NCBI GenBank assembly: GCA_022779305.1
Contig: JALFSW010000042.1
Coordinates: 62,001 to 126,000, forward strand
Length of the DNA: 64,000 nt
Direction: 5' to 3'
Source: Prevotella sp.
Lineage (GTDB): Bacteria > Bacteroidota > Bacteroidia > Bacteroidales > Bacteroidaceae
Positions 5,747 through 51,830 of this stretch are shown piece after piece. How positions within the stretch are numbered: the first letter of the stretch is position 1; the number at the start of each line of letters is the position of its first letter. The translations under genes were made by a program, and so were the position numbers. The notes under the pieces are model-generated. The model did no database searches and was not told the origin of the DNA. It saw nothing but the letters and a program-made list of their open reading frames with translations.

Positions 5747-5811
5747 AGCATGTTCTAAAAATTCTCGCTGTGCGAGCGTCTAAAGAGTAAAAATTTATAG
5801 AACCTGCTTAA
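5747..5811. repeat. Repeat family R2, copy a
   Basis: GCATGTTCTAAAAA ... TTTATAGAACCTGCTTAA imperfect terminal inverted repeats, shared with 13864-14063 and 40543-40631. Confidence 0.75.
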
Positions 5812-6006
5812 ACCCAAGTCGGTCATTAGACCGTTAGAGTGTCCTTTTTCTTTTATTTTTAACTTCCCAACAGCTTGCATCTGCTTATCGGCTGCTTCTT
5901 CAGCGTTTTTTCGCAGATGTAGCGGGCTACTTCAAGAAAAAACGCTAAACAATCTGCACAGATAATCAGACGCAATCCCTTTGGTCTCTAATGACCGAGT
6001 TGGGTT
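5811..6006 (+). repeat. Repeat family R1, copy a (central core inverted relative to the other long copies)
   Basis: Ends AACCCAAGTCGGTCATTAGACC ... GGTCTCTAATGACCGAGTTGGGTT; internal AACTTCCCAAC, CGCAGATGTAGCGGGCTACTTCAAG and TCTGCACAG shared with 18083, 22031, 46581 and 51636. Confidence 0.9.
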
Positions 6007-6122
6007 AAAAATTACACACATCAACGATTATTTTCCGAATATCTACTTGGTTTTCAAACAATAGTCGTACTTTTGCAGGCAGGCATTTAAAGCCTTTATT
6101 TAAAGACAATAAAACAGACGTG

Positions 6123-18082: not shown

Positions 18083-18278
18083 AATCCAATTCGGTCATTA
18101 AAGACCAAAGGGATTGCATCTGATTGTTTGTGCAGGTTGTTTAGCATTTTACCGCAGATGTAGCAGACTACTTCAAGAGAAAATGCAGAACAAGAAGCCA
18201 ACAAGCAGGTGGAAATAGTTAGGAAGTTAATAAATAAAATAAAAGGAAACCCTAACGGTCTAATGACCAATTTGGGTT
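18083..18278 (-). repeat. Repeat family R1, copy b
   Basis: AATCCAATTCGGTCATTAAAGACCAAAGGGATTGC ... CCCTAACGGTCTAATGACCAATTTGGGTTT; inverted relative to R1a. Confidence 0.88.
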
Positions 18279-22030: not shown

Positions 22031-22227
22031 ACCCCAATTCGGTTATTAGAGCCCAAACGAATTGCATTTGATTGTCTGTGCAGCTTCTTTAGCATTTTCT
22101 CGCAGATGTAGCGGGCTACTTCAAGAAAAAACGATAGACAAGTTGCCGACAAGCGGATGCAAGCCGTTGGGAAGTGAAGGAATAAAATAAAAAGAAACCC
22201 TCATGGTCTAATGACCGATTTGGGTTT
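22031..22227 (-). repeat. Repeat family R1, copy c
   Basis: ACCCCAATTCGGTTATTAGAGCCCAAACGAATTGC ... CCCTCATGGTCTAATGACCGATTTGGGTTT with the shared core. Confidence 0.88.
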
Positions 22228-30372: not shown

Positions 30373-30460
30373 AACCCAAATCGGTCATTAGACCGTTAGG
30401 GTTTTCTTTTTTATCGTATTTACTAACTTCCTTTTGGTTTTTAATGACCGATTTGGGTTT
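30373..30460 (+). repeat. Repeat family R1, copy d (internally deleted)
   Basis: AACCCAAATCGGTCATTAGACCGTTAGGG ... AACTTCC-TTTTGGTTTTTAATGACCGATTTGGGTTT; both ends retained, centre missing. Confidence 0.9.
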
Positions 30461-46580: not shown

Positions 46581-46775
46581 CCCCAATCGGTCATTAGACC
46601 ACTTGGATTTTCTTTTTATTTTATTTATAACTTCCCAACGACTTGCACTCGCTTGTCGGCAGACTGTTCATCGTTTTCTCTTGAAGTAGCCCGCTACATC
46701 TGCGCTAGAAGGTTGAACAATCTGCACAGGCAATCGGCTGCAATCCCTTTGGTCTCTAATGACCGAATTGAGATT
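46581..46775 (+). repeat. Repeat family R1, copy e
   Basis: CCCCAATCGGTCATTAGACC ... AACTTCCCAAC ... CTTGAAGTAGCCCGCTACATCTGCG ... TCTGCACAG ... CAATCCCTTTGGTCTCTAATGACCGAATTG. Confidence 0.88.
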
Positions 46776-51635: not shown

Positions 51636-51830
51636 ACCCAAATCGGTCATTAGAGACCAAAGGGATTGCGCCTGATTATCTGTGCAGATTGTTTAGCGTT
51701 TTTTCGCAGATGTAGCGGGCTACTTCAAGAGAAAACGCTAAACAAGCAGCCGATAAGCAGATGCAAGCCGTTGGGAAGTTAAAAATAAAAGAAAAGGACA
51801 CCCTAACGGTCTAATGACCGATTTGGGTTT
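51636..51830 (-). repeat. Repeat family R1, copy f
   Basis: AACCCAAATCGGTCATTAGAGACCAAAGGGATTGCG ... CCCTAACGGTCTAATGACCGATTTGGGTTT; full-length. Confidence 0.92.

Follow-up and report, generated by a model that had tools for sequence, protein, structure and literature searches.

The element R1a is very probably a normal copy of a high-copy miniature transposable element (MITE) with an imperfect central hairpin, altered by one polymerase template switch. R1a lies in a window of 64,000 nucleotides, the whole stretch of Prevotella sp. DNA that was analysed, where its parts are placed as follows:

5808..5812, plus strand: left 5-bp target-site duplication TTAAA of R1a
5813..6004, plus strand: R1a, 192-bp MITE with terminal inverted repeats (TIRs) CCCAAGTCGGTCATTAGA / TCTAATGACCGAGTTGGG
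5902..5912, plus strand: left hairpin arm AGCGTTTTTTC, exactly reverse-complementary to the right arm; TTTTCTC in normal siblings
5903..5935, plus strand: smallest tract (33 nt) that a single template switch accounts for as a reverse-complement copy (positions 81-113 of the alignment starting at 5823)
5913..5935, plus strand: inverted core of 23 nt, GCAGATGTAGCGGGCTACTTCAA; the normal orientation is the reverse complement of GCAGATGTAGCGGGCTACTTCAA
5936..5946, plus strand: right hairpin arm GAAAAAACGCT, native
6005..6009, plus strand: right 5-bp target-site duplication TTAAA of R1a

The TTAAA target duplication is intact on both flanks, and the TIRs are 18 bp long and of the CCCAAATCGGTCATTAGA type. 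The element is flanked by a minus-strand gene whose 534-aa product gave no Pfam match and by a plus-strand gene for nicotinate phosphoribosyltransferase; as the two are on opposite strands, R1a sits between divergent genes. With an Rfam search over the R1a region nothing was matched.

Judged by its sequence features (18-bp TIRs, fixed 5-bp target duplication, short length, many copies), R1a is a MITE. This assignment is supported by the 5-bp direct repeat WTNAW at the ends, which is identical in 61% of the 79 copies with both ends preserved, compared with 19% expected (z=9.4). The 18-bp terminal inverted repeats occur in R1a's own genome as well as in relatives, and the element, with a length of about 196 bp and about 100 core-bearing copies, is non-coding; ORFs of ≥150 aa were not found inside it. 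At ≤3 mismatches about 103 copies of the core were counted in the own genome, a draft MAG of 2.23 Mb in 90 contigs that is about 90% complete. Further members of the family are located in the window:

18085..18276, minus strand: sibling MITE, normal core
22033..22224, minus strand: sibling MITE, normal core
30375..30457, plus strand: short coreless TIR element of the same family
46581..46772, plus strand: sibling MITE R1e, normal core
51637..51827, minus strand: sibling MITE, normal core, about 91% identity to R1a
5919-5930, 22108-22119, 46686-46697 and 51712-51723: palindromic heart GTAGCNNGCTAC in the window MITEs

Of 200 genus genomes, about two dozen carry the same TIRs, in many cases around differing interiors. 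Different or far shorter interiors (66-326 bp) between these TIRs were seen in the own genome and in the genus (30375-30457; L058, L061, L063-L066). Shared TIRs around different interiors suggest that one transposase may move several MITE families. As candidates for a parent insertion sequence, two pairs of TIRs with about 2 kb between them were inspected and rejected; the proteins they enclose, recognised by eye from the translations, are a phosphoglycerate-mutase-like protein and a C1-type peptidase, i.e. ordinary cellular genes and no transposase, and an autonomous partner with the same ends was not found. A literature search with the TIR sequence CCCAAATCGGTCATTAGA returned nothing relevant and, among the papers covered, no description of this MITE; the family is apparently undescribed. 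Head-to-tail copies with a common TTAAA junction were also observed (L012, G000:C55:3190-3585; L044), with one copy inserted at the target duplication of its neighbour. Numerous contigs of the own assembly terminate within the MITE (L076, L083, L085, L097, L107, L108, L115), which indicates that the element limits the assembly of this genome.

According to the initial annotation, the central hairpin core of R1a is inverted relative to the other long copies. This is borne out by the complete set of copies in the own genome: when these were oriented by their arms and the core orientation was tabulated, R1a was the sole flipped copy among 96 distinct core-bearing copies. The arms of R1a and R1e lie in the same orientation, as can be read directly from the sequence; R1e has the outer arms of R1a but CTTGAAGTAGCCCGCTACATCTGCG in the middle. 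The arm-reversed copies at 18085, 22033 and 51637 agree with R1e once turned and disagree with R1a. The position given at the outset for the inverted segment, 5896-5945, was right within a few bases, as the 11-bp arms together with the loop span 5902-5946. The core 24-mer occurs five times in the window, with 0 occurrences expected, and GTAGCSSGCTAC was found at ≤1 mismatch only inside these MITEs within the window.

For the orientation call, each of the 96 distinct core copies was scored in both orientations against the left- and right-arm consensus, with orientation set independently of the core. R1a scored 135+158 with the flipped model and 33+34 with the normal model, and all other copies fit the normal model. 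A mis-orientation of the arms was also checked, and the arms of R1a proved to be correctly oriented. Column conservation in the own genome amounts to 97% in the core, compared with 86% in the left and 88% in the right flank, and the orientation call is thus not marginal. Orientation is otherwise fixed across the family, and nothing points to a switch. The 12-bp heart GTAGCNNGCTAC is conserved among species of the genus, with a divergent stem around it (relatives L133-L174). Covariation in the hairpin is modest in the own genome, with 13 compensatory cells compared with 3.6 in shuffles, and would fit either selection on structure or homogenisation of the arms.

To search for flipped copies elsewhere, we made use of the off-centre position of the core in the element, whereby its distance from the TIRs reports its orientation. 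As the search patterns demand exact letters in the inner TIR and in the core, the absolute counts are lower bounds. Among 398 genus genomes, normal geometry was found in 157 copies from 27 genomes and flipped geometry in two, R1a and a copy at G065:C9:67488; the latter flip is independent and belongs to another species than that of R1a. In 85,462 species genomes, the own genome left out, four loci with flipped geometry were detected, namely L175 (the G065 copy), L176, L177 and L178. Beyond R1a and G065, this wide scan adds one clear flip (L178) together with a complex and an ambiguous case. Normal siblings number 50 in the L178 genome and 35 in the L176 genome. L177 comes from a Porphyromonadaceae MAG; its main difference is GG/CC in the middle of a perfect palindrome, and it was left as ambiguous. 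At L176 (G398, 2098-2260) a near-perfect palindrome is present in which the right arm was rewritten from the left, the centre turned and about 12 nt lost. A single template-switch event fits L176 poorly.

In the three clear cases, R1a, G065 and L178, the left arm has been replaced by a reverse-complement copy of the right arm, whose own outer part is still native. This one-sided overwrite is not what reciprocal or site-specific inversion produces. R1a combines TTTTTTC on the left with GAAAAAAC on the right, a pair that occurs in no other copy; elsewhere, T-type left arms are paired with GAGAAAA or GCTAAAA. In G065, the left arm reads CAGATTGCTAATCGTTTCG in place of the sibling's CATCTCGCTAATCGTTCCG and matches the reverse complement of the right arm exactly; the right arm itself is native outward from a CG next to the core that is common to both templates. 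The copied stretch in L178 measures about 62 nt, with a length change of one and the switch-back at a shared GACAA. In each of the three, the sequence between two switch points is a reverse-complement copy of a nearby stretch and can be attributed to one event, by which an imperfect inverted repeat was made more perfect. Predicted folding as DNA gives perfect stems of 11 bp and 19 bp for the flipped copies (−12.1 and −25.4 kcal/mol), compared with imperfect hairpins in the matched siblings (−4.2 and −11.7 kcal/mol). Arms homogenised without a flip, the other expected product of template switching, were observed in L140, L192, L195 and L221. Since an automatic template-switch survey of all copies was confounded by single-base indels, only cases checked by eye or fitted individually were used.

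With siblings standing in for the true ancestors, one four-point template switch reduces the mismatches from 23 to 2 for R1a (sibling L010), from 41 to 16 for G065 (sibling L158) and from 41 to 7 for L178 (sibling L227), in the last case with the length change of +1 nt included. Under random mutation of the same siblings (200 simulations), the gain was at most 4 for R1a and at most 6 for G065 and for L178.

The following course of events would account for R1a. A polymerase at work on the left arm would have changed over to the complementary strand within the right arm and from there copied at least 33 nt in reverse, through the right arm, the core and the inner part of the left arm. It would then have returned to the native right arm beside the core, at a GA of 2 nt common to both templates. 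The core would thereby be turned round and the left arm made exactly reverse-complementary to the right. Replication as the setting, the strand involved and the location of the template, in the same copy or in another, are parts of this scheme that we infer.

That the same process acted in trans, with a MITE copy in opposite orientation as the template for the polymerase or for a conversion tract, we regard as unlikely. About 100 copies carry the same sequence and the tract copied into R1a is identical to the family consensus, but a second copy is unnecessary, as R1a's own right arm supplies the same sequence. Reciprocal core inversion between the arms of 8-11 bp, whether through recombination or through cruciform resolution, and followed by point mutation, accounts for most of the difference in R1a, where the mismatches fall from 23 to 4; in G065, the other case of equal length, it leaves 20. 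The T/A arm combination of R1a would require a further substitution, G065 about four more changes, all of them toward perfect pairing, and the altered length of L178 is at odds with it, so that this course appears quite improbable. For R1a by itself the margin of the template switch over reciprocal inversion is 1-2 substitutions, varying with the sibling used, and the template-switch model has one free breakpoint more. Stronger discrimination comes from G065 and L178, and the case therefore rests on the three flips together.

Two mechanisms had been proposed for the inverted core in the initial annotation, site-specific inversion and hairpin-mediated template switching, of which only the latter is supported. 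It is favoured by the one-sided flips, the left arm as an exact or near-exact reverse complement of the right, the switch-back at short homology and the additional occurrence of arm-only homogenisation. A site-specific invertase that uses the arms as recombination sites of a phase-variable switch would agree with the precise flip and with the inverted arms flanking a conserved core. No common recombination site was found, however: the arm sequences differ between flipped copies of different species, and the products are non-reciprocal, in contrast to the conserved sites and reciprocal products of such a system. Flips are rare, about one in 80-100 copies (1/96 here, 2/159 over the 398 genomes), orientation is otherwise fixed, and the four scanned neighbours of R1a gave no invertase match. 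We consider this explanation barely credible. An artefact of assembly or library preparation might be suspected in a draft of this quality, in which several contigs end within copies of the MITE, but R1a lies inside a 131-kb contig. Further, the 11-bp inverted repeat is below the usual assembly k-mer size, and flips that leave the same one-sided footprint occur independently in separately assembled genomes, which makes an assembly error highly improbable.

A further reading, which we offer only tentatively and think rather doubtful, is that selection or the transposition machinery maintains the orientation of the core. The MITE core would then be functional and directional, the flipped copies its natural mutants, and the hairpin a recurrent hotspot of template switching that keeps regenerating perfect stems. 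The reading draws on the ratio of 157 normal to 2 flipped copies, the normal orientation in 27 species and the higher identity of the core relative to the arms in the own genome (97% compared with 86-88%).

MITEs with imperfect hairpins and high copy number offer dozens of siblings per genome, which provide a well-known starting point for reading each template switch. The three clean cases of arm overwrite coupled to core inversion, from Prevotella and related MAGs, represent a rare diagnostic mutation class. The family could serve to measure the rate, tract length and strand bias of template switching in bacteria that are hard to grow. They also call for caution, since paired changes in repeat hairpins need not reflect selection for RNA structure.

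As a MITE, R1a is similar to other bacterial MITEs (PMC10969869), including that of Porphyromonas gingivalis (PMC4596501), in being short, non-coding and of high copy number, with TIRs and a target duplication; it differs from them by the TIR CCCAAATCGGTCATTAGA with a 5-bp WTNAW duplication. In coding genes of yeast, template switching between short inverted repeats was reported to give arm homogenisation and spacer inversion, the inversions only at arms of more than 9 bp and in one case with simultaneous arm conversion (PMC8604942). Similar to this quasipalindrome mutation, the arm of R1a was perfected and the spacer turned in one non-reciprocal event at arms longer than 9 bp. In contrast to yeast, R1a belongs to a bacterial MITE family with many reference siblings, and its spacer measures about 23 nt, whereas the spacers inverted in yeast gave substitutions of 2-5 bp. 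For RNA genes, loop inversion together with arm correction was described as the strongest support for template switching and as rare; in rRNA data, loop inversion coupled to stem correction was found only six times (PMC8794818). The source and target of the switch in the two stem halves and the coupling itself are common to these RNA hairpins and the present case, whereas here the coupling occurs in three elements and in MITE hairpins instead of RNA genes. The R1a event is thus a member of the published template-switch class; its mechanism is ordinary, and its record is unusually clean.
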